DNA from: Halobacterium hubeiense
Lineage (GTDB): Archaea > Halobacteriota > Halobacteria > Halobacteriales > Halobacteriaceae
Assembly (NCBI RefSeq): GCF_001488575.1
Contig: NZ_LN831302.1
Location: 124,001 to 188,000 of the forward strand
Reading direction: 5' to 3'
DNA: 64,000 nucleotides
The translations under genes were made by a program, and so were the position numbers. The notes under the pieces are model-generated. The model was not told the DNA's origin and ran no database searches. It saw only the letters and a list, made by a program, of their open reading frames with translations. Positions 23,939 to 35,077 of the stretch are shown piece after piece; position 1 is the first letter of the stretch, and every line of letters begins with the position of its first letter.

Positions 23939-25332
23939 GTCAGCGACCCACCGCTGAAGCGGTGGGCTTGTCGGTGGACTCCCGTTCAAACTCCAAGCTG
24001 GAGTGGACGTTGGACACGTCGCTCACGTTCAACGTCCCCGACTTCAGGGCAAGCTGACCGTTGCCCAACCCATCGGGACGTTTGCCCGGTGGTAAAGCTA
24101 ACAGACGGAGGCCGACGTTTTTCGCCGCGTTGTAGTCGCCGTCCACCTCGTACCCACACTCGTTGCACGCGAACCAGCCCGTCTCGCTGTCGCGGTTCGT
24201 GCTGGACTGGTGGCCGCACTTCGAGCACGTCTGCGAGGAAAACGCCGGGTTGACCGACTCGACGCGAATCCCGTACTCTGCGGCCTTGTACGCGATTTGT
24301 TCTTGCAGTTCGCGGAACGCCCAGTTGTGCATCTGCCGTTTCAGCTGGTCGTCGCGGGCATCCATTCGCTCGCGGATGTGGGTTAGGTCTTCGACGGCGA
24401 TGTACGAACAGCCGTGTCGCAGGGCTTCCTCCACGATTCCACGCGAAATGTTGTGCAGGCGGTTCAGGACGAAGCGGTTTTCCCGTCCCGACAGTCGCCG
24501 TAACGCCTGCCGAGCGGAACGGGTGCCTTTGTCCTGAAGGCTCCGTCTCACGCGGAAATAGTGATTCTGGCCCCACAGCAGTTCACCGCCGTCGAAGAAC
24601 CGTCCCGTACTCGTCACAGCGACGTTCTTCAGGTTCAAATCCACGCCAAGCACGCGGTCGCCGTCACGCTGGTCTACCTGCTTTTGGATGACGACGTGGA
24701 GGTAGAACGCATCCTCGCCGGGACGGTAATGAAGTGTCCCCATCCGTTTCTCGTAGTCGTCGTCTTCAAGGTACGACCGCTGGTACTCACCAAGCACGAA
24801 GTCGGCTTCGACGCGCCCGTTGACCGTCGAGAGCGTGGCGTACTCGTCCTTGATAGTCAGGGTGCGTTTATCGTAGACGGCAGACGGTTCATCGAACGAG
24901 GGGAGCGGTCTGCTGTTGCCGTTCTCCCACTCCGCGACGGTGGATTTCATCGCTTCGACGGCTTTCGAGTAGGCGCGTACCACGAGGTTTGCGGGCAGGT
25001 CGGTTCTGTCCCGCAAGTCGTGGTACACTTCGTCGTGGATGGTGGACTTGTTGAGAATCAGGTCGCCGTCGTCGTCTCTGCCGTGGTCGATGGTGTAGTT
25101 GGCGGCAGTGTTGAACTGCTGGATGGTCTGATGGAGGTCGTCGCGCCGCTCCTTGGGTACGTCGAGTTTGACGGGAACGGTGCGTTTGACCTCCATCGCA
25201 TATTCACATACGGATGTTTTATTTATACATTCTGTGCCGGCGTTGGGGAGTCGGTCCTGTCGTCGTCGGTGGGTTGTCGCACGGAGTGTACGCGCTTCCT
25301 CCCACTCCTAAAGGGGTGGGCTTCCGCGCTGT
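23939..25332 (-). mobile_element. TnpB-only (IS1341-type, IS200/IS605 superfamily) element, copy 1
   Basis: Comparison with the copy at 60309 to 61702 defines a 1,394-bp unit. On the plus strand it starts GTCAGC with the hairpin CCACCGC-TGAA-GCGGTGG, and ends at a second hairpin CCACTCC-TAAA-GGGGTGG plus GCTTCCGCGCTGT. It has no tnpA, no inverted terminal repeats and no obvious target duplication, as expected for IS605-like elements needing a TnpA in trans. The 3'-end hairpin overlaps the tnpB stop region, where the guide (omega) RNA scaffold should lie. The guide would be the flanking bases at 23938 and below. Confidence 0.9.
23940..25196 (-). CDS. tnpB: TnpB RNA-guided endonuclease (IS1341-type), copy 1
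   Basis: 418 residues. RuvC acidic residues are visible in VLGVDLNLKNVAV (first Asp), YIAVEDLTHIRERM (Glu) and VDGDYNAAKNVG (last Asp). The zinc finger CSKCGHQSS...CNECG lies between the last two. The N-terminal wedge part starts MEVKRTVPVKLDVPKERRDD. The catalytic set is intact, so the protein may be an active RNA-guided nuclease. TnpBs help an element persist by cutting the empty donor site. About 23 of 418 residues differ from the copy at 60310. An AT-rich TATA-like stretch (TTTTATTTATACA) lies upstream of the ATG. Confidence 0.93.
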   Translation of the reverse strand: MEVKRTVPVKLDVPKERRDDLHQTIQQFNTAANYTIDHGRDDDGDLILNKSTIHDEVYHDLRDRTDLPANLVVRAYSKAVEAMKSTVAEWENGNSRPLPSFDEPSAVYDKRTLTIKDEYATLSTVNGRVEADFVLGEYQRSYLEDDDYEKRMGTLHYRPGEDAFYLHVVIQKQVDQRDGDRVLGVDLNLKNVAVTSTGRFFDGGELLWGQNHYFRVRRSLQDKGTRSARQALRRLSGRENRFVLNRLHNISRGIVEEALRHGCSYIAVEDLTHIRERMDARDDQLKRQMHNWAFRELQEQIAYKAAEYGIRVESVNPAFSSQTCSKCGHQSSTNRDSETGWFACNECGYEVDGDYNAAKNVGLRLLALPPGKRPDGLGNGQLALKSGTLNVSDVSNVHSSLEFERESTDKPTASAVGR

Positions 25333-25405
25333 ACCTCGAGTGAGTCGCGCCCCGCCGGCGCGGTCCTCGCAGTCCTTATGAGTGAGCCGCTGGATGGAGG
25401 AGATA

Positions 25406-26146
25406 ATGGGCGTGCGTGATCTCCTTGCCGGCGCCAAGATCGACCTCAGGCGGCTGCTGAGCGCTTGGCGTACCATCGTGTTCTCTCGGCAGACCGATGA
25501 GTACTCGGTTCAAGACCGGTGGCATCCTGGATCGCCCGGAGCGAAACTTGCGTTCTGGGCATGGAGCATTCTGGGGGTCGTCCTCATCGGTGTCGTTTAT
25601 CCGTTCGCTGCGCTCGGCTTCTGGACGCGCTACGTCGGCCGGCAAATCGACCGCATCGTAGCTGGCCTCGGCGTCCTCGTCATTATCGCTGCGATGGCCG
25701 TCCTCTGGGGTGGCCTCACGGCGCTCGCCTGGGACCGCCTCCCAACAACTGGCTTCCGCGCCGTGCTCGCTGCAAGCGTCGTGGCGACAGCGTCGGTTGG
25801 CCTCAGCTGGGTGTTCGCCCGCTACGGGTCGCGCCGCCTCACGCTCGTCTTCGCGTACCCGTTCGCCGTCGCAGCTATCTTCGTCCCGCCGGTCACCGCC
25901 GCGCTGTTCTCGCCAACCATCGGCGCCGGCCTGCTCTCAGAGAGCGAGCTGTTCGCCGAATGGCTCCTCAACAACGTCGTCATCGGCGGCCTCAGCACGA
26001 CCATCCGTCAACAGTTCGAACTGGCAGGGCTCGCCTTCATCGGCATGTGGTTCGGTTTTGCCGTCCCCGTCGGCTGGGCGCTCGCGCTCCTCGTCTCGCT
26101 CGCGAATCTGATCCGGCCGCGTACTCGCAGGAACCCCCAGCAGTAG
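25406..26146 (+). CDS. Polytopic membrane protein of unknown function
   Basis: 246 residues with five or so membrane helices (about 47 to 72, 88 to 112, 120 to 140, 148 to 170 and 205 to 230). The cytosolic N terminus (MGVRDLLAGAKIDLRRLLSAW) is basic. I recognise no family. The ATG at 25406 has a GGAGG ribosome-binding sequence 5 to 6 bases upstream, unlike most genes here, which supports this start over 25382. It converges on the CetZ-like pair 148 bases away and is just inside the accessory region next to the TnpB element. Confidence 0.65.
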   Translation: MGVRDLLAGAKIDLRRLLSAWRTIVFSRQTDEYSVQDRWHPGSPGAKLAFWAWSILGVVLIGVVYPFAALGFWTRYVGRQIDRIVAGLGVLVIIAAMAVLWGGLTALAWDRLPTTGFRAVLAASVVATASVGLSWVFARYGSRRLTLVFAYPFAVAAIFVPPVTAALFSPTIGAGLLSESELFAEWLLNNVVIGGLSTTIRQQFELAGLAFIGMWFGFAVPVGWALALLVSLANLIRPRTRRNPQQ

Positions 26147-26294: not shown

Positions 26295-27440
26295 CTAGTC
26301 CGGGTTTTCGGGCGGCACCGCTTCCTCGCTGGGTTCGTCACTCTGGTCGGCTTGGTAGTCGACGGCCTGTTGCTGGAGGGCGTCGATCCGTGGGACGTCG
26401 GTCACATTCGAGAAGAGGACGACCGCTTCGAGGGTCTCGGAGTCGGTCCGGGGGTCGTCACCGGCGAGGATTTCGACGGTGTCGGTCTCCTGTTCGAGCC
26501 ACTGGCGTGCGCTTTCGAAGCCACGCCGCGAGAGCTCCTGTGGCGGGCCTGAGAGCACGACTAGCGCGCGTTCCGCGCTCGCAATGTCACAGGGGAGGGT
26601 GAGCCGGGAGTTGGCGGCCCGCCGGACGAGCGATTTGACTTTCGCGGCGTCAGTTGTTTGTGGCTCCGTCTCGTCGCGAACGCCGAGCCACGAGAGCAAC
26701 CGAGCGAGGACGCCGGACGGCGTCGACTCGAGTTCGGTTGCGGCGTGCCCGATCGACGAGAGGCCACCAGGTGCGAGCGTGCGAATCATGTCGCTGGAGT
26801 CAACCGCGTTCTCCGCGACCGTCGAGGCGTCGAGTTCGCCCGCCGCGAACAGCGTCACGACGCGCGTTGCGAGCGCCTGTGTTGCCTCGTCGTGGCCAGC
26901 ATCGTCCAAGCGGGGCTGCCAGGTTTCGCGGTCGAACGTGAGCATGCTGTCTGCTGCGGGCACGATCGAGCGGAGCGCGCGGCCCGCGTTGACGGCCGCT
27001 TGGCCGCCCTCGGATTCGGCGGGCAGGACGCCCAGTGCATACACCGGCTCGTCGTACGTCGCCTGCAGCTCCTCGATGAGCACCGACCCGGCGCCGCTGC
27101 CAGTGGCACTGCCGAGCCCGGTGACGACGAGGATGCCGTCGCAGTCGTGGATGGGCAGCGAGTCGAACGCACGCCGGATCTCGGGCAGGTCGTTCCGCGT
27201 GACGTCGACGGCGAGGTCCGGATCGTCGACGCCCTGCTCGTCCACTGCCTGGTGGGTGTCGCCGATCAGGAACCGCTGTGCCTCGGACACCATCTCTAGG
27301 TCGTCGGGGACAGTTTGGGAGATCTCGCAGACGAGCGCGTTGCCGTGGCTGAACGTCCGCTCCGTCTCCGCTTCCACTGCGAGGATGCGATCGACGATCC
27401 GACTCCCGGTCTCGCCGACCCCAACGAGTGCGAGTTCCAT
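26295..27440 (-). CDS. CetZ-like tubulin-superfamily protein with divergent GTP-binding motifs
   Basis: 381 residues, clearly homologous to the adjacent CetZ over its whole length (GVGETGSRIVDRIL, EIRRAFDSLPIHDCDGILVV, DEPVYALGVLPAE, ARQWLEQETDTVEIL). The tubulin signature loop reads GLGSATGSGAGS instead of GGGTGSG. The KGHGVGGD-type segment is replaced by VDEQGVDDPDL, and the FDNDAWR residues are changed to FDRETWQ. GTP binding or hydrolysis may be impaired. Its start overlaps the stop of the upstream CetZ by one base (TAATG-type), so the two are co-translated. It could be a partner subunit or regulator of the first protein. Confidence 0.8.
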   Translation of the reverse strand: MELALVGVGETGSRIVDRILAVEAETERTFSHGNALVCEISQTVPDDLEMVSEAQRFLIGDTHQAVDEQGVDDPDLAVDVTRNDLPEIRRAFDSLPIHDCDGILVVTGLGSATGSGAGSVLIEELQATYDEPVYALGVLPAESEGGQAAVNAGRALRSIVPAADSMLTFDRETWQPRLDDAGHDEATQALATRVVTLFAAGELDASTVAENAVDSSDMIRTLAPGGLSSIGHAATELESTPSGVLARLLSWLGVRDETEPQTTDAAKVKSLVRRAANSRLTLPCDIASAERALVVLSGPPQELSRRGFESARQWLEQETDTVEILAGDDPRTDSETLEAVVLFSNVTDVPRIDALQQQAVDYQADQSDEPSEEAVPPENPD

Positions 27441-28618
27441 TAGACAACCGGGTCGAGGTCGTCGTTCTCGTCGGTGATCAGGTCGTTAATCTCCTCCTCG
27501 CGGACGGCTTCCTGCTCGGCGATCTTCTCTTGGGCGTCGACGGCCTGGTTCTGGATTTCCTCGATCCGCGGGGTTTCCGTGACGTTCGAGAGCAGCACCG
27601 CCGCAGCGAGCTGTGGGGACTGCTTACGCGGGTCGTCACCCACGAGCACTTCCACCGTGTCAGCCTCCTGTTCGAGCCACTGGCGGGCGCTCTCGATGCC
27701 TTTCCGCGAGAACTCGCTGGGCGGCCCCGAGACCACGACGAGAACGCGGTCGGCGCTGGAGATCTCCGCGGGCACCGTGAGCCGGGAGTTGACCGCGCGA
27801 CGCACGAGCCCCTGAATCTTCGTTGCGTTGCTCCCGTCGTCCTGTTGGGTGGTCTGGTCGCCGCTCCACCGGTCGAGAAGCCCCTCGCCTGCCTCGTTAT
27901 CCACTTGGGTTGCGGCGTACCCGATGGTTGAGACCCCGCCCGTGTCGAGGGTGCGAATGATGTCGCTGGAGTCCATGGCGTTCTCCGCGACTTCCGAGTC
28001 GTCCGTTTCGCCGGCCGCCAGCAGCGTCACCAGCCGGGCCGCCAGCTCGCGGTTCATCTGCTCGTAGCCTTCCTCGATGGTCTGCTCGCGAGCCCGCCAG
28101 GCGTCGTTGTCGAAGCCGATGAAGTTGTCGACCTTCGTGACGAACGACTGCAGCGACCGCGCGGCGTTCAGCGCCGGTCGGCCGCCTTCGAACTCGCCGG
28201 GCAGCACGCCGAGGCCGTACACGGGCTCGTCGTACATCTCCTGGAGCGCGTCGATGACGACCGGGCCGCCACCGCTGCCGGTGCCGCCGCCGAGGCCGGC
28301 GACGACGAGCATCGCGTCGACCTCGTGAATTTCGATGTCGTCGAACGCGCGACGAATCTCCTCGATATCGGCCGAGGCGACTTCGGCGCCGACTTCGACG
28401 TCACCGCCAACGCCGTGGCCTTTCGCCTTCTGGTTCGTGTCACCGATGAGGATCCGCCGCTCTTCGGGGATGTAGTCGGGCTTGGCAAGGTCCGTTCGCG
28501 CGGTGTTGATGGCGTGGACGTGTTGGCAGAGGTTTCGATCCGTTCGGGATTCGAACTCGAGCATTCGATCGACGATTTTGCTGCCGGCGTTCCCAACGCC
28601 GATCGTTGCGAGTTTCAT
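27440..28618 (-). CDS. cetZ: CetZ family tubulin-like GTPase
   Basis: 392 residues. Motifs are GVGNAGSKIVDRM (nucleotide loop), KGHGVGGDVEVGAEVA, the tubulin signature GLGGGTGSGGGPVV, GLGVLPGEFEGGRPALNAARS, NFIGFDNDAWR and GGVSTIGYAA. The acidic tail after about 345 is helical and Glu-rich. CetZ proteins form filaments that control cell shape and motility in haloarchaea. Start ATG at 28618 with a TATA-like box about 25 to 35 bases upstream. It is the first gene of a two-gene operon with the divergent paralogue. Confidence 0.93.
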   Translation of the reverse strand: MKLATIGVGNAGSKIVDRMLEFESRTDRNLCQHVHAINTARTDLAKPDYIPEERRILIGDTNQKAKGHGVGGDVEVGAEVASADIEEIRRAFDDIEIHEVDAMLVVAGLGGGTGSGGGPVVIDALQEMYDEPVYGLGVLPGEFEGGRPALNAARSLQSFVTKVDNFIGFDNDAWRAREQTIEEGYEQMNRELAARLVTLLAAGETDDSEVAENAMDSSDIIRTLDTGGVSTIGYAATQVDNEAGEGLLDRWSGDQTTQQDDGSNATKIQGLVRRAVNSRLTVPAEISSADRVLVVVSGPPSEFSRKGIESARQWLEQEADTVEVLVGDDPRKQSPQLAAAVLLSNVTETPRIEEIQNQAVDAQEKIAEQEAVREEEINDLITDENDDLDPVV

Positions 28619-28642: not shown

Positions 28643-28653
28643 ATATTTAAAAC
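28643..28653 (-). promoter_or_regulatory. TATA-like box for the cetZ pair
   Basis: On the minus strand TTTTAAATATC lies 25 to 35 bases before the ATG at 28618, a standard haloarchaeal leaderless promoter. Confidence 0.55.
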
Positions 28654-29011: not shown

Positions 29012-29359
29012 TCACTTCTCTCTTGGCGGTCGGGTAATGGCCCATGTTACCCCATCCGAACTTCCGCCCCATCGCTCAAACTCGAACGCTGTCGTCCGCG
29101 CTTCGAGATCTGTCATTGCAACCCCAACGCGTTTTACCGATGCGTCGAGAGCGGTTGCAATGTGGCGGCTTTTGACAAATAGCCGTCCATCTGTGGCCTC
29201 GGCGTCCAAGTACTGGAGGATTCTGTCCTGTAACGCGGGTTGGCTTGCTTCAGACACATCTATGCTGGCCACATTATCGTTATCAACTTTTCGCGAACCA
29301 GTTACTGTCTCGTCTGCGAGACAGCGGGTTCCGTTTGTCCTCCGGTTCGGGGTGGTCAC
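29012..29359 (-). CDS. DUF7123-like small winged-helix protein
   Basis: Up to 115 residues, of which the C-terminal 80 are convincing: LQDRILQYLDAEATDGRLFVKSRHIATALDASVKRVGVAMTDLEA and a final strand WGGSSDGVTWAITR. This is a winged-helix fold of a haloarchaeal family I know as DUF7123, probably DNA-binding. GTG at 29359 gives the longest protein. The poorly conserved first 30 residues mean that a GTG in KVDNDNVASID may be the true start, with AAAGTTGATAACG upstream. Confidence 0.6.
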   Translation of the reverse strand: MTTPNRRTNGTRCLADETVTGSRKVDNDNVASIDVSEASQPALQDRILQYLDAEATDGRLFVKSRHIATALDASVKRVGVAMTDLEARTTAFEFERWGGSSDGVTWAITRPPREK

Positions 29360-29436
29360 GCCAAGTGGCCGGTTCTCCGCTTACACGGCGAGTGCGACGC
29401 CGAATTCACGGCCACACCCCTCTTCGAGCGAGCGCG

Positions 29437-29859
29437 TCAGGTTTCCGAGGTTGTATACAGTGCGAGGCTGCAGACGACGAACAGGGCTTCAGCGAGCTTT
29501 GCTCCCAGCGCGTTCCAATTGAGCGACCCCTGCATGTAGAACGCCGAGAGGAATCCCTCAAACCCGCCGTAGAAGAAAAACGAGAGGATGGTGACGAACG
29601 CGTAGGCGGCCGCCACGAGGTAGAGCTCGCGCCGCCAGTACCGTGTCAGGTATAGTCCGACGCCGCCCAAGAAGCCGAGACCGTTGAGCGCGAACAGGAT
29701 GCCCAGCGTCTGACTGAAGCCGTAGAACTGTGGCGCCAACAGCAGGTGGATAATGCCGGTGATGACCGCGAGGTCGTTGGCGAGATAGCCAATGAGGCTG
29801 TCTGGGAGGCTGATGAGGTCGCTACTGCGCCCCGTCGTATTGGTACCGAGATCTGACAT
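29437..29859 (-). CDS. Four-helix membrane protein (DUF7475-like)
   Basis: 140 residues with four membrane helices (about 25 to 45, 50 to 70, 80 to 103 and 115 to 135). Features include LAVITGIIHLLLAP, GILFALNGLGFLGGVGLYLTRYWRRELYLVAAAYAF and a late YGGFEGFLSAFYMQGSLNWNALGAKLAEALFV. Similar haloarchaeal proteins are known only as a DUF (7475 from memory). ATG at 29859 begins MSDLGTNTTG. It follows the TetR gene on the same strand, 118 bases away. Confidence 0.65.
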   Translation of the reverse strand: MSDLGTNTTGRSSDLISLPDSLIGYLANDLAVITGIIHLLLAPQFYGFSQTLGILFALNGLGFLGGVGLYLTRYWRRELYLVAAAYAFVTILSFFFYGGFEGFLSAFYMQGSLNWNALGAKLAEALFVVCSLALYTTSET

Positions 29860-29977
29860 ATTCCCCACTACTGAACACACCGCAATAGCTTTGGGGGGTA
29901 ACCCGTGAGCAAGGGCGAGTACGGTTGCCTCAGACCGCCGACGACAGCTATCTTTCCCGAGGAGCGAATCCCGCCGT

Positions 29978-30589
29978 TTACGACTCTTCGACGGCCAAGA
30001 GTCGGTCTTCAATATAGTCATCGAGCTCTGTACGGACGGTTCGATGCCTATCCACTGTAATCCGGTCAAATATTTCCCCACTAACCAGTGCGAGGATGAA
30101 ATCTGCAACGGAATCAGGGTCAACCTCTCTGAAATCACCGGACTCGATGCCAGCCACGATGATCTCTCGCACCGACTCCCGGAAACCCATTTGTGACCGA
30201 TTAAAACATTCTCGGTAGTCCTCATTGTGGATTGCTCGTGTTCGTAATTCGACCAGCACCTTCTCGTAGTCGCGTTTTTGGTGTTCATCACCGGTCGGGA
30301 GAATGTTGTCAAGCAGTGCTCGAAGTCGTGTTTCCGGATCTACATCGTCAGCGATGGGTAGTCTGCCCTTCTGAACGCGTTCAAGCAGGTACTTAAGAAG
30401 CTCAAGGAGTATCTCGTCTTTCCCGTCATAGTGGTAGAAAATCAGGCCTTCCGACTTGGCGAACCGCTGGCTCACCTGATTAATTGTGAGGTCACTGTAC
30501 CCGTGTTCAGCCAGCGCATCAAATGTCGCCTCCATGATGGCTGCCCGAGTGTCGTCAGGGTCCTCCGGGAAGAGCGGGTTATTCGCCAT
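29978..30589 (-). CDS. TetR family transcriptional regulator
   Basis: 203 residues. The N-terminal HTH (about 12 to 60) reads RAAIMEATFDALAEHGYSDLTINQVSQRFAKSEGLIFYHYDGKDEIL, the standard TetR DNA-binding domain. A helical ligand domain follows with the EYRECF and ESVREIIVAGIESGDFREVDP segments. The divergent operon at 30942 encodes an exported protein and an MMPL transporter, and a perfect palindrome stands in its promoter. This regulator is therefore the likely repressor of that efflux operon. Ligand unknown. Confidence 0.9.
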   Translation of the reverse strand: MANNPLFPEDPDDTRAAIMEATFDALAEHGYSDLTINQVSQRFAKSEGLIFYHYDGKDEILLELLKYLLERVQKGRLPIADDVDPETRLRALLDNILPTGDEHQKRDYEKVLVELRTRAIHNEDYRECFNRSQMGFRESVREIIVAGIESGDFREVDPDSVADFILALVSGEIFDRITVDRHRTVRTELDDYIEDRLLAVEES

Positions 30590-30655
30590 ACTTTGTATTG
30601 TCCTTGCTCATAGTTAGCCGTTGCTTCCCAATCAAAGGGGTTGTCTTGGTCCAAC

Positions 30656-30699
30656 CTCACCCACGGAGGAATCCCCCCTTCAGGGTGGGAGGAAGCCAA
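30656..30699. repeat. Solo TnpB-element end remnant
   Basis: The bases CACCCACGGAGGAATCC then CCCCTTCAGGGTGGGAGGAAGCC resemble the 5' end of the TnpB elements (CCACCCCTTTAGGAGTGGG, then AGGAAGC on the minus strand). No tnpB is attached. It sits in the TetR/efflux intergenic region. Confidence 0.45.
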
Positions 30700-30793
30700 G
30701 TCGTTGAAATTGGGGCAGCGCGCCTGGGTTCGCTGTGTTTCTTCCTGGCGGTCGGTTCGGTGTTCTGTATCTCTGCTCCGTTGATTCCGGTAG

Positions 30794-30832
30794 GGTAATA
30801 TACCCGGGGCAAAAACTGAGTGAGCACTCAGT
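30794..30832 (+). promoter_or_regulatory. TATA-like box and TetR-type operator of the efflux operon
   Basis: GGGTAATATACCC (about 30793 to 30805) is a TATA-containing near-palindrome. It is followed by the perfect 8-2-8 palindrome ACTGAGTG-AG-CACTCAGT (30815 to 30832) in the predicted start-site region. That layout fits repression by the divergent TetR protein. Confidence 0.65.
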
Positions 30833-30837
30833 CAAAT

Positions 30838-30945
30838 ATGGCTGCTCGGACGGAAACCGGCCACCCAGGGAACCAGGTCGTCGATGACCTCCAGCCATTT
30901 CGCGCAGCACAGAACCGAGCAACCGTAGCAGAACGTAACTCATGA
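30838..30945 (+). CDS. 35-residue leader ORF, coupled to the exported protein gene
   Basis: ATG at 30838 opens a frame starting MAARTETGHPGNQVVDDL and ending VAERNS, with its TGA overlapping the next gene's ATG (ATGA at 30942 to 30945). It starts 5 bases past the operator and so would be the first codon region of the transcript. It has no membrane segment or known domain. It may be a real small protein, or a leader that couples translation to the downstream gene. Confidence 0.4.
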   Translation: MAARTETGHPGNQVVDDLQPFRAAQNRATVAERNS

Positions 30946-32603
30946 CTCAGAAAACGCCAGAACACACGCACAACTCGAAGGTATTGCACCTCCTCATACT
31001 ATCCGTCCTGATAACCGGGTCAGTGGTCGGCGGTGTCGCCGTTACAGCGACGGCTCAAGCCGGCTCTTCTGGCCAAGTAATTGGCGCCCCAGATATCTCG
31101 TTTGCGACCGGTTCGGGCACGTTTTCGGCCGGGACCACCGGTGAACTAACGGTCTCGATCGTTAACCGTGGCCAGATTCTGAGAGCCGGTCCGTCCCAGT
31201 ATGAAGACCGGGTCACCACCGCGGAAGCATTAACCTTTGAACCGCAAGATGATGACGTTCCGATCAAGATCCAAACCGAACGAGTGACGGTCGGTAATTT
31301 CCCGGTTGGAGGGGCGGAACAACCGATTTCGGTCACTGTGCCGGACGATACTGAACCCGGGACATACGACATTCCGATTACGGCCGAATATACGTACACC
31401 CGATTCATCGATTATACCGCCAACGGGGTCGATGAGATAACGGAATCCACGAAAGAGAAAACCGACTCGATAACCATCCATGTCAATGAAAATGCGCAGT
31501 TCGAGATCGTCGACTCAAATGCGTCAGCACAAATCGGCGATGAGAACGATATCTCAGTTGCGCTCCGCAACACGGGCTCCGAGATTGCTAGTGGGGCGAG
31601 TGTAACGGCTGAGTCCAGAAGCAGCTCGGTAACGTTCGAATCTGCCGATACGTCTTCATCCACCTTCGTTGGCGATTGGGAACCGGGTGAGGTTCGAACC
31701 GCTACCTACAACGTTCGACTCGAGTCTGATGCCGTCCTCCGTGGCTATCCGCTTGATTTGACGGTGAACTACGAGGACAGTGACGGGTTCGACCAGACGT
31801 CCAACCCACTGACTTCCGTGGTCCAGTCGACTCCGGAACAGTCCTTCGCCGTTACCGATGTCTCGTCGTCGCTCCGTGTTGGCGAAAGTGGGGCGATTAC
31901 GGGGACGATTGAGAACACCGGCCCCACTCCGGTGGAGAGTGTGGCGGTCCGTCCGAATGAGAACCTCTCGTCGGTCGTCCCGGGTGAGAAATCTGTCGTT
32001 GTTGGGTCGCTTGCCCCCAGTGAGTCCACGTCGTTCCGACTTCCGATGGAAGTCACCAGCGAGGGTGAACCAGGCGAGAAATTGATCGGGCTTGACGTGC
32101 AGTACCGGGACAGCGACGGCGATCAGCGAACGTACAGCAAACACGACATTTCAGCGTCTGTTGGACCGGAGCGGGACGCGTTCAAACTAGCGGCCACGGA
32201 TCAAACGATTTCTGTGGGGAGTTCGCGGACGCTCGCAGTTGAAGTGACAAACAATCTCGACGAGACCGTGACTGACGTCGATGCACGGCTGTTCGCAGAT
32301 GACCCACTCGCCACCGGTGACACGGATACCAGCTACATCGAATCACTAGAACCCGGTGAGTCCACGACGCTTGACTTCGACGTGTCGGCTACAGCCGCCG
32401 CGACAGCCGGGAACACGTATCCGATTTCCTTTGACTTCCGGTACACGGACCGCCGTGGCGACACCCACCTCTCAGATACGTTCCGGTATCCGCTTAACGC
32501 AGCTCAATCGACGAACGGCGGCGGGCCACCGCTCGTCCTTATTGGCGGGGCAGCAGTAATTGTCCTCGGGGGTGCAGCAGTCGTCTATCGGAGGTATAAC
32601 TGA
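30942..32603 (+). CDS. Exported S-layer/CARDB-like (COG1361-type) protein with C-terminal anchor
   Basis: 553 residues. A signal peptide (about 15 to 40, LHLLILSVLITGSVVGGVAVTATAQA) precedes four Ig-like NEW3/CARDB repeats (around 50 to 175, 185 to 290, 297 to 400 and 410 to 515). Each has patterns such as NTGSEIASGASVT, GTIENTGPTPVESVAV and VEVTNNLDETVTDV. A C-terminal hydrophobic helix (about 527 to 548) and basic YRRYN anchor it. In archaea this family is often paired with MMPL/RND transporters, as here: its stop overlaps the transporter's ATG (TGATG). It may be the transporter's external partner. Confidence 0.85.
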   Translation: MTQKTPEHTHNSKVLHLLILSVLITGSVVGGVAVTATAQAGSSGQVIGAPDISFATGSGTFSAGTTGELTVSIVNRGQILRAGPSQYEDRVTTAEALTFEPQDDDVPIKIQTERVTVGNFPVGGAEQPISVTVPDDTEPGTYDIPITAEYTYTRFIDYTANGVDEITESTKEKTDSITIHVNENAQFEIVDSNASAQIGDENDISVALRNTGSEIASGASVTAESRSSSVTFESADTSSSTFVGDWEPGEVRTATYNVRLESDAVLRGYPLDLTVNYEDSDGFDQTSNPLTSVVQSTPEQSFAVTDVSSSLRVGESGAITGTIENTGPTPVESVAVRPNENLSSVVPGEKSVVVGSLAPSESTSFRLPMEVTSEGEPGEKLIGLDVQYRDSDGDQRTYSKHDISASVGPERDAFKLAATDQTISVGSSRTLAVEVTNNLDETVTDVDARLFADDPLATGDTDTSYIESLEPGESTTLDFDVSATAAATAGNTYPISFDFRYTDRRGDTHLSDTFRYPLNAAQSTNGGGPPLVLIGGAAVIVLGGAAVVYRRYN

Positions 32604-35077
32604 TGGCAGTCGCGGAGGCGGTTGAAGCGGCGATAAAACGCCTTAACAACGGTATCGTAGACCGACCCCGCGCCATAATTATTGCATTCCTGCTTCTGAC
32701 AGGCGTGTTTGCGGGAGGCCTCGGCTCTGTCTCGATGGGGGAAGGAGGCCTTGATGCGTTTACCGAGGGACTCCCAGAGCAGAACGCGCTCGACGATGTC
32801 AACGAGAACTTCCAACAGCCATTTGCGCCGAACACGGAGACGACACAGCTCATCCGAACGGATGATAATGTTCTCACGAAAGAGTCGCTGATTCGCGAAG
32901 CACGCGTTCTTGAACAGATCGAATCACGAGACGATCTCTGGATGGACGCAGCGAGTGGGCCGGTCCCACTCATCGCGCAGCAGCTGAATCCGTCGGCGTC
33001 GACACCGACGGCGTATCGGGAGACGCTCGAACGGGCAAGCCCGACTGAAATCCGGCAGACCGTTCGCGATCTCAAAGGGAACGCTCAGTTCACTGGCTCG
33101 CTCGCCGATAACTTTAATCCAACCAGTGTTTCGGCTTCGGCGTCGATTACGACGGTCTCGCATACGCTCTCGAAGAGTTTGGGAAGCGACGAATTGACCA
33201 CCGTTCAGACGGAGATCCAGTCGATCGCTGAGAACGCACCCAGTGATCTTCGCGCGTTCGGATCGGGGACGACACAGGCTGAGATCACCCAGTCGATGAC
33301 CGACTCGCTCACTATCGTGATGCCGATCGTGATCCTGTTGTTGCTGTTCTTCCTGGTCGTCGCCTACCGTGACCCCATTGACGTCGCGCTCGGACTGATC
33401 TCGCTGGTGATGACGATCATCTGGACGTTTGGCTTCCTCGGGTATGCCGGCATTCCGTTCAGCCAGCAGATGATCTCCGTGCCGGTGTTACTGCTTGCTG
33501 TCGGCGTCGACTTCGGCATCCACATCATTAACCGCTACCGCGAAGAGACGGAACGCGGATTTGAGGGAATTGAGGCGATGCGGGCAGCAAATGGCCAACT
33601 GATGGTCGCGTTCATCATCGTCACCGTGACCGCCGTGTTCGGGTTCGGCGCGAACGTCATTTCCGACCTCTCCCCGATCCGGAACTTAGGGATTGCCTCC
33701 GCGCTGGGAATCATCTTCACGTACCTGATCTTCGGGCTGTTTTTACCGGCCGCGAAGCTGGCTACCGACGACGTCCGGACCCGGCTTGGCGTCCCGGAGT
33801 TCAACTCGAAACCGATCGCCTCGGAAGACTCGGCTCTCGGGCGCGTACTCGCATTCCCAGCACAGGTAAGCCAATACGCCCCAACAGCGATTGTCGTTGC
33901 GCTACTTCTGTCCGGTGCTGTCATGGGTGCGTACGGGTCTGGCGTCGGCACCTCCTTCGAGAACGAGGACTTTCTGCCACCTGAGGAACTCCCGGATTAC
34001 CTCGAGGTCTTACCGGCTCAGTTCAGCCCCGGGGAGTATACGATTACGGAGACGATGAATCTGCTCGACAATAAGTTTGGTCAGCGTGATTCGATTAAAA
34101 TCTATCTCGAGGGGAACTTCGAAGAAGATCACGCACTCGAAGCCATGGCTGCCTCCGACGAGAGCCCACCAGAGCCACTTGCCGTTGGTGCAGGCGGCCA
34201 AGCAGAAGCCCAGAGTATCGTGACGGTGATTCAGTCCCATGCCGACCAGAATCCGGAGTTCGCGTCCTTAGTCGCTCGCAACGACCAAAACGACAACGGG
34301 ATTCCGGACCAGAATCTGGAACGCATCTACGACGTGTTGTTTGCCTCGTCAGCAAGTGGGCAAGCCGAGCAATATCTGACGGAAGACCACCGAACCGCAC
34401 AGATCGAGTATACGGTTGATTCGGACGCAACCCCGTCAGAAGCTTCGTCTGCAGCAAGCGAACTCGCCGAGCGATTCCCAACTGAAGCAACCGGAACGGG
34501 GAATACCGTCGTGATGTCCGCAGTGATGGACCGAATCTTCCAGTCGGCGATTCAAGGGCTGGCGATCGCGGTCGTGTTGACGGCGTCGTTCCTGGTGGTT
34601 GTGTACGGGGTGCTCGAACGGAAGCCGCTGTTAGGCGTCGTGAACGTGTTCCCGATCCTGATCTCGATTGCGTTCCTCTTGGGAACGATGCGATATCTGG
34701 GAATGACGTTGAATGCGTTGACAGCGACGATTCTCTCGATCTCAGTCGGCGTTGGGATTGCCTACTCGGTGCACACGACCCACCGGTTCATCGACGAGTA
34801 CGATCAGGCAACGGGCGCGCATGAAGCGATGGTCGTGACACTCTCGGGGACTGGCGGTGCGTTGTTCGGCAGCATGCTCACCACAACGCTCGGGACCGGG
34901 GCGCTCGCATTAGCGATTACCCCACTGCTCGGCAACTTCGGGACCTTGATCGCACTCAGCGTCTCCTACTCGTTCCTGATGTCGATCATCGCACTGCCCC
35001 CCGCAGTGTTGCTCTGGGAACGAGTCCGCCAGTGGGAGCTTCAGCCGCTCGCACGGCTCCGGCCAACGACCGACTAG
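32603..35077 (+). CDS. MMPL/RND superfamily transporter
   Basis: 824 residues with the two-repeat RND layout: one helix, an external domain, then five to six helices, twice. The first core has VPVLLLAVGVDFGIHIINRYREETERG and the second ISVGVGIAYSVHTTHRFIDEY, both with the small-residue/acidic pattern of sterol-sensing/MMPL cores. External loops occupy about 50 to 225 and 455 to 630. The likely role is export of lipids or hydrophobic compounds. It is co-translated with the exported CARDB-like protein and probably regulated by the TetR protein. Confidence 0.92.
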   Translation: MAVAEAVEAAIKRLNNGIVDRPRAIIIAFLLLTGVFAGGLGSVSMGEGGLDAFTEGLPEQNALDDVNENFQQPFAPNTETTQLIRTDDNVLTKESLIREARVLEQIESRDDLWMDAASGPVPLIAQQLNPSASTPTAYRETLERASPTEIRQTVRDLKGNAQFTGSLADNFNPTSVSASASITTVSHTLSKSLGSDELTTVQTEIQSIAENAPSDLRAFGSGTTQAEITQSMTDSLTIVMPIVILLLLFFLVVAYRDPIDVALGLISLVMTIIWTFGFLGYAGIPFSQQMISVPVLLLAVGVDFGIHIINRYREETERGFEGIEAMRAANGQLMVAFIIVTVTAVFGFGANVISDLSPIRNLGIASALGIIFTYLIFGLFLPAAKLATDDVRTRLGVPEFNSKPIASEDSALGRVLAFPAQVSQYAPTAIVVALLLSGAVMGAYGSGVGTSFENEDFLPPEELPDYLEVLPAQFSPGEYTITETMNLLDNKFGQRDSIKIYLEGNFEEDHALEAMAASDESPPEPLAVGAGGQAEAQSIVTVIQSHADQNPEFASLVARNDQNDNGIPDQNLERIYDVLFASSASGQAEQYLTEDHRTAQIEYTVDSDATPSEASSAASELAERFPTEATGTGNTVVMSAVMDRIFQSAIQGLAIAVVLTASFLVVVYGVLERKPLLGVVNVFPILISIAFLLGTMRYLGMTLNALTATILSISVGVGIAYSVHTTHRFIDEYDQATGAHEAMVVTLSGTGGALFGSMLTTTLGTGALALAITPLLGNFGTLIALSVSYSFLMSIIALPPAVLLWERVRQWELQPLARLRPTTD

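Follow-up and report, generated by a model that had tools for sequence, protein, structure and literature searches.

Within the tubulin superfamily, CetZ proteins are the archaeal branch; how their filaments are controlled is little understood. A 64,000-nucleotide stretch of the Halobacterium hubeiense genome (contig NZ_LN831302.1, positions 124,001 to 188,000; hereafter the window) raises a question that bears on this control: why would a haloarchaeon keep, directly downstream of an intact CetZ gene (CetZ-A, or A), a second CetZ gene (CetZ-B, or B) whose nucleotide face is degraded? The answer proposed here, which we regard as evenly poised between right and wrong, is that the pair encodes a two-part CetZ cytoskeletal unit, in which A would be a polymerising GTPase and B a partner that docks on the GTP end of A, with an associated membrane protein (M).

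A (27440..28618, reverse strand) is an open, full-length reading frame of 392 amino acids, with intact T1-T7 loops and the C-terminal CetZ peptide LITDENDDLDPVV. B (26295..27440, reverse strand), also open and full length, encodes 381 amino acids; its T7 acids and H10-S9 region are intact, and it ends without the C-terminal peptide. The two proteins are 51% identical. Pfam places both in CetZ, and the assignment to haloarchaeal CetZ made in an earlier note on this DNA was right: A matches CetZ_C with 219.1 bits (cut-off 21.6; E = 4e-65) and Tubulin with 107.3 bits (cut-off 33), and B matches the same families with 201.6 bits (E = 9e-60) and 55.3 bits, both exceeding the cut-offs. That note had also described a one-base overlap of the genes and a set of motifs, all of which were recovered: GGGTGSGGG, KGHGVGGD, and FDNDAWR are found in A, SATGSGAGS, VDEQGVDDPDL, and FDRETWQ in B, and base 27440 belongs to both genes. 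This base is common to the stop codon of A (27440-27442) and the start codon of B (27438-27440), which together form a TAATG junction (27438..27442, reverse strand), and translational coupling of the two genes is likely.

Pairing of the two genes was found to be strict. A search with B in a class sample of 391 genomes gave matches in 72 at E <= 1e-85, and 26 family genomes were searched besides; scoring in the class-wide searches was confined to the four top first-look candidates of each genome. Scores against A fell into two sets, at least 608 bits, by which A was defined, and at most 491 bits. The known pair loci number 49 (48 from the class sample, and one, G003, from the family sample), 48 of which were taken in full, while G292 is represented by search hits only; the loci extracted comprise all matches other than G292 and one additional hit on contig 1 of G242. 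In 48/48 A loci, a second CetZ gene, B, lies directly downstream on the same strand, at a gap of -1 to 142 bases; the tandem arrangement that the earlier note had proposed to look for in other genomes thus recurs at every one of the 48 pair loci read. This constant order, together with the strong CetZ_C matches of both proteins, argues that the pair is more than chance.

The B-profile search separated B (460-594 bits) and A (495-526 bits) from the next group (at most 454 bits). At the scores used, 48 of the 391 class genomes have A; 47 of these also have B, which in the 48th (G269) is cut by a contig end, and neither gene was found alone. B is full length in 46/48 loci and truncated by contig ends in the remaining two. 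The distribution of the pair is patchy, covering four families and about 12% of the class-sample genomes. A phylum sample of 392 genomes showed the same score gap (A at least 617 bits, other CetZ at most 482 bits), and no A outside the order of the window was found among these genomes. Carriage of the pair by plasmids was rejected, because none of the relatives of A in the plasmid collection exceeds 60% identity (13 records, 42-51%). Besides five CetZ genes, the host genome (3.13 Mb, 99.8% complete) gave two weaker matches that resemble FtsZ. In a contig scan with B, the nearest named relative was from Halobacterium sp. KA-4 (89% identity), and the only other match was a weak, local one in a PVC-group bacterium.

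Phylogenetic trees point to a single origin of the pair. In a tree of 142 rows, from which the B of G269 (a fragment at a contig end) was left out, A, B, and A+B each fall on one side of a branch (support 99); the next group to A+B consists of 25 unpaired CetZ genes (C), and CetZ1 and CetZ2 lie outside. A more careful tree of 59 rows (20/48 A, 20/48 B, and 13/26 C rows, leaving out the G010 row of C, a member of a different clade) gave support of 100/99 for A, 100/97 for B, and 100/99 for A+B, again outside CetZ1. A tree in which A was forced to group with C was rejected (p-AU 0.0086), and the placement of A and B outside both CetZ1 and CetZ2 in the larger tree rejects the idea that the pair is simply CetZ1 and CetZ2. 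Since A, B, and A+B are each monophyletic and the A+C grouping is rejected, A and B are the products of one tandem duplication, older than the spread of the pair; the duplication suggested in the earlier note is therefore supported. A, B, and M of one g45 genome (G341) group with the relatives of the window rather than with the other g45 genomes, which points to paired descent of the three genes. B evolves faster than A (tree length 11.3 compared with 4.0). In 16 close genome pairs, the ratio of nonsynonymous to synonymous substitution rates (dN/dS) was 0.096-0.331 for B and 0.010-0.069 for A; B is thus, despite its faster evolution, under purifying selection. Another odd CetZ clade was encountered at L065:14496-15584 and in L005 (G000:C1:225494-226576), with a member in G010 situated about 5 kb away from the pair and bearing an altered T4 loop, GGGTGSVATP.

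The nucleotide site of B was compared with that of A, using the residue numbering of H. volcanii CetZ1 and scoring five pocket elements: N/Q10, N38, H66, the T4 loop GGGTGxG, and N169. The T-loops are kept in 48/48 A rows and match those of CetZ1 or the C group. Among the 48 B rows, N/Q10 is kept in nine, N38 in 15, H66 in one, N169 in 36, and the complete T4 loop in 25; no B row combines all five elements, and none has the full T3 pattern. The complete GTP pocket, which the earlier note had named as the outcome that would speak against its interpretation, is absent from all 48 B rows on these elements. The B of the window keeps 18/32 near-invariant residues of the top face and has R at position 169. 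The statement that B has lost the GTPase signature holds for the quoted motifs, which are changed, and for the pocket as a whole; it does not hold for the T4 core (TGxG) or the T1 glycines, which are present in every B row. We infer that B is non-hydrolysing. The T7 acids D215 and D218, by contrast with the pocket, are present in 47/47 readable B rows, and the loss of the GTP site in B is therefore one-sided, with its own pocket degraded and the acids that would act on a neighbour retained, a pattern that the earlier note had missed.

The same asymmetry was seen across the whole protein. Near-invariant columns (n = 92) were defined on 75 canonical CetZ rows and divided into a top face (T1-T6), a bottom face (T7/H8, H10-S9, and a neighbouring stretch), and other positions; the B of G269 and G371, both cut, and the C row of G010 were left out of these statistics. 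Mean retention in B is 62% for the top face (32 columns), 82% for T7 (six), 92% for the rest of the bottom face (13), and 77% elsewhere (41). Retention of the top face is below that of the other classes (permutation p 0.0014), and the contrast in rate between top and bottom was matched by 0/10,000 permutations; the permutations treat sites as independent, which they are not, and the p values are thus guides only. Relative to the protein mean, site rates at the top and bottom faces are 0.99 and 0.59 in B, 0.59 and 0.77 in C, and 0.35 and 0.80 in A. Compared with unduplicated CetZ, the receiving face of B is relaxed and its docking face tightened, as for a one-sided subunit. A kept docking face combined with a relaxed receiving face, the pattern taken to mark an end cap or GTPase-activating protein (GAP), is found in B with residue sets that follow tubulin/FtsZ geometry rather than a computed complex.

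In tubulins and FtsZ, the T7 loop of one subunit acts on the nucleotide of the adjacent subunit. Since B retains the T7 acids, it could still cut the GTP of A. Our first choice among the possible functions, held with slightly less than even confidence, is that B acts as an end cap and GAP that sets filament length or turnover. In the proposed mechanism, A would polymerise with GTP, while B itself would not cycle GTP. B would bind through its T7 face to the plus end of an A subunit, the end that carries the GTP, and its two T7 acids would complete the active site of A there; B would terminate the filament at its plus end and trigger hydrolysis. That B would end the filament is suggested by its top face, which is less constrained than would be expected if another subunit were to dock on it. 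The C-terminal tail of A and M would hold the A-B system at the membrane. The fullest version of this proposal is put forward only tentatively: B would be a one-faced subunit devoted to capping the plus end of A and activating its GTPase, and A, B, and a dedicated M would form a cassette passed on as a whole among haloarchaea, by descent and, apparently, by transfer. The cellular role is probably related to cell shape or the envelope, by analogy with other CetZ proteins. A partner with one face relaxed and the other kept predicts where and how B binds, and control of filament ends should thus be testable in halophiles.

The alternative with the best standing, which we nevertheless consider rather unlikely, is a heterofilament resembling that of alpha/beta-tubulin, in which A and B alternate, the T7 loop of B cuts the GTP of A, and the site of B is a silent, permanent interface met by the T7 loop of A. 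Alpha-tubulin carries nucleotide that stays unhydrolysed, and one of its T7 residues acts on the nucleotide of its partner. Strict 1:1 pairing of the genes, with an overlap or short gaps, is consistent with such an arrangement, as are the T7 acids of B, the retention of both site and T7 in A, and the nucleotide-site glycines that remain in B. However, if A docked on the top face of B, this face should have stayed constrained, and its relative rate is like the average for B; the cap is therefore favored over an alternating polymer. Like alpha/beta-tubulin and the BtubA/B heterodimers, A and B are two paralogues; they differ in having been duplicated independently inside CetZ and in that the site of B is degraded and not merely buried. 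If the heterofilament were true, the division of labour of alpha/beta-tubulin would have been invented independently.

Several observations weigh against the proposal as a whole, in addition to the limits just given for the face sets and permutations. G7, G9, and G12 of T1, T111, G112, and G114 of T4, D168, and W172 are present in 48/48 B rows, and 25/48 B proteins have the whole GGGTGxG loop; nucleotide binding by B, perhaps with polymerisation, may therefore persist in many lineages. The conserved H10-S9 region of B could serve another contact, linkage alone would give similar trees for A and B, and no M is present in the fetched stretch at 31/48 pairs. The first of these observations, together with the good CetZ fold of the B model, would fit a B that is still able to bind nucleotide and assembles separately into a polymer that is slower or independent of GTP, the two CetZ proteins having diverged in role. 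The model of B (pLDDT 87.3, pTM 0.86) has CetZ1 (PDB 4b46) as its best PDB match (Z 46.1, 2.2 A, 327 residues) and also matches CetZ2 (Z 43.6, 2.2 A, 331 residues); the model of A is weak (pLDDT 74.5), and the fold of A thus rests on homology. Loss of the T3 pattern in every B row, the rarity of N/Q10 and N38, and the strict pairing, which is not expected of independent proteins, make a separate B polymer unlikely, and the cap remains our preferred reading.

The membrane protein that the earlier note saw converging on the pair was confirmed. M (25382..26146, forward strand) is a 254-amino-acid predicted membrane protein with about five hydrophobic segments, convergent with B across a gap of 148 bases, and the pair-linked member of a widespread haloarchaeal family, present in 328/391 class genomes, for which no Pfam or NCBIfam name was found. 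It lies beside 17/48 pairs in two orientations, convergent in 12 (g1, g3, g45) and downstream on the same strand in five g24 genomes, where it follows B directly and the coordinates overlap by four bases; this conserved genomic link lends weight to the suggestion in the earlier note that M could be an anchor. M also follows the unpaired C gene in five of 25 loci, all within the genus of the window. Stand-alone copies differ in context, with CetZ within about 1.5 kb in 0/18 loci and an aldo/keto reductase gene just upstream in 16/20 (L152-L169, L170-L189). In the M tree, the pair-linked copies (the 17, and a G014 copy about 28 kb away from the pair there) cluster together, although support is modest (82/70), and separately from stand-alone M, even in G288 and G341, which carry both; the C-linked copies make up another group (100/100). 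The genome of the window has the pair-linked copy only. The branching of M follows that of the pair, G341 included, and this, with the recurrence of M beside pairs, rejects M as a chance neighbour. Since the pair-linked copies group together and branch with the pair, M is likely a dedicated membrane partner of it; the 31 pairs with no nearby M imply that it cannot be essential everywhere.

The C-terminal tails also distinguish the two proteins. In 48/48 A rows, the chain ends in [LI]DP[VI] plus one residue, mostly after L-I-T-D, and the same type of peptide is found in 25/26 C rows; the CetZ1 of the host genome ends in LVEDDDDELEPLF. None of the 48 B rows, two of which are cut short, has the CetZ peptide (0/46 full-length rows), an absence that the earlier note did not mention. 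It is probably through this peptide of A and through M that the filament is attached to the membrane. The tails of B vary, with an HGFDF-like motif in many of g10, g39, and g40, and ends such as EF[VI]W or EFEFV in g9, g32, and g38 (L079-L107); these recurring motifs are possible partner-binding peptides. B might, then, be a non-polymerising adaptor that joins A filaments to M or another envelope partner through its tail and free face. The variable tails, some with FDF or EF[VI]W patterns, the grouping of pair-linked M, and the overlap of B and M in the g24 genomes are in keeping with an adaptor; the many pairs with no adjoining M, and the presence of a conserved C-terminal peptide in A and not in B, render it improbable. 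That B is a neutral relic, a decaying duplicate, would account for its longer branches and looser sequence, and is scarcely credible, since B is constrained (dN/dS 0.10-0.33, which rejects a pseudogene), is never lost where A stays, and is nowhere interrupted except by contig ends, contrary to the decayed second gene in many relatives that the earlier note had said would tell against its own interpretation.

A and B share family and fold with CetZ1 and CetZ2 (PDB 4b46, 4b45), and A resembles them in the kinds of its T-loops and of its C-terminal acidic peptide; A and B differ in the strict tandem pairing and in the absence, from B, of nucleotide-face residues and the tail peptide. In addition to CetZ1 and CetZ2, a third, uncharacterised CetZ subfamily has been described in Halobacteria (Brown and Duggin 2023, PMC9856176). 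Like A and C, it lies outside CetZ1 and CetZ2, and it is a well supported group that could be A, C, or neither; the available portion of that article describes neither a tandem arrangement nor a degraded partner nor a membrane gene for it. CetZ3-6 of H. volcanii are, like A and B, additional haloarchaeal paralogues, whose deletions alter cell shape in early biofilms (PMC10606840, PMC11312570); the accessible parts of these reports mention neither pairing nor a missing GTP site, and those of PMC9871819 mention no tandem pair or degraded CetZ partner. No tandem or heterodimeric CetZ or pseudo-GTPase pair was found in the open-licence literature searched.

Upstream of the pair, a TATA-like box, TTTTAAATAT (28643..28652, reverse strand), lies 24 bases ahead of the A start codon, which suggests a leaderless A-B transcript; a simple pattern sought as a common promoter motif gave such a box in only 10/48 A genes. 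Farther upstream, a DUF7123 protein (29012-29359) and a DUF7475 protein (about 29437-29940), encoded within 29012-29940 on the reverse strand, lie between the pair and a TetR gene. On the other side, adjoining M, 23940-25196 (reverse strand) encodes a stand-alone IS605 OrfB/TnpB-like protein (Pfam OrfB_IS605 and Cas12f1-like_TNB), and genes of this kind also lie near four other pair loci. The TetR regulator, a CARDB-domain protein, and an MMPL transporter are adjacent to one another at 29978-35077, and MMPL genes of a similar kind are found near pairs in g10 genomes too.
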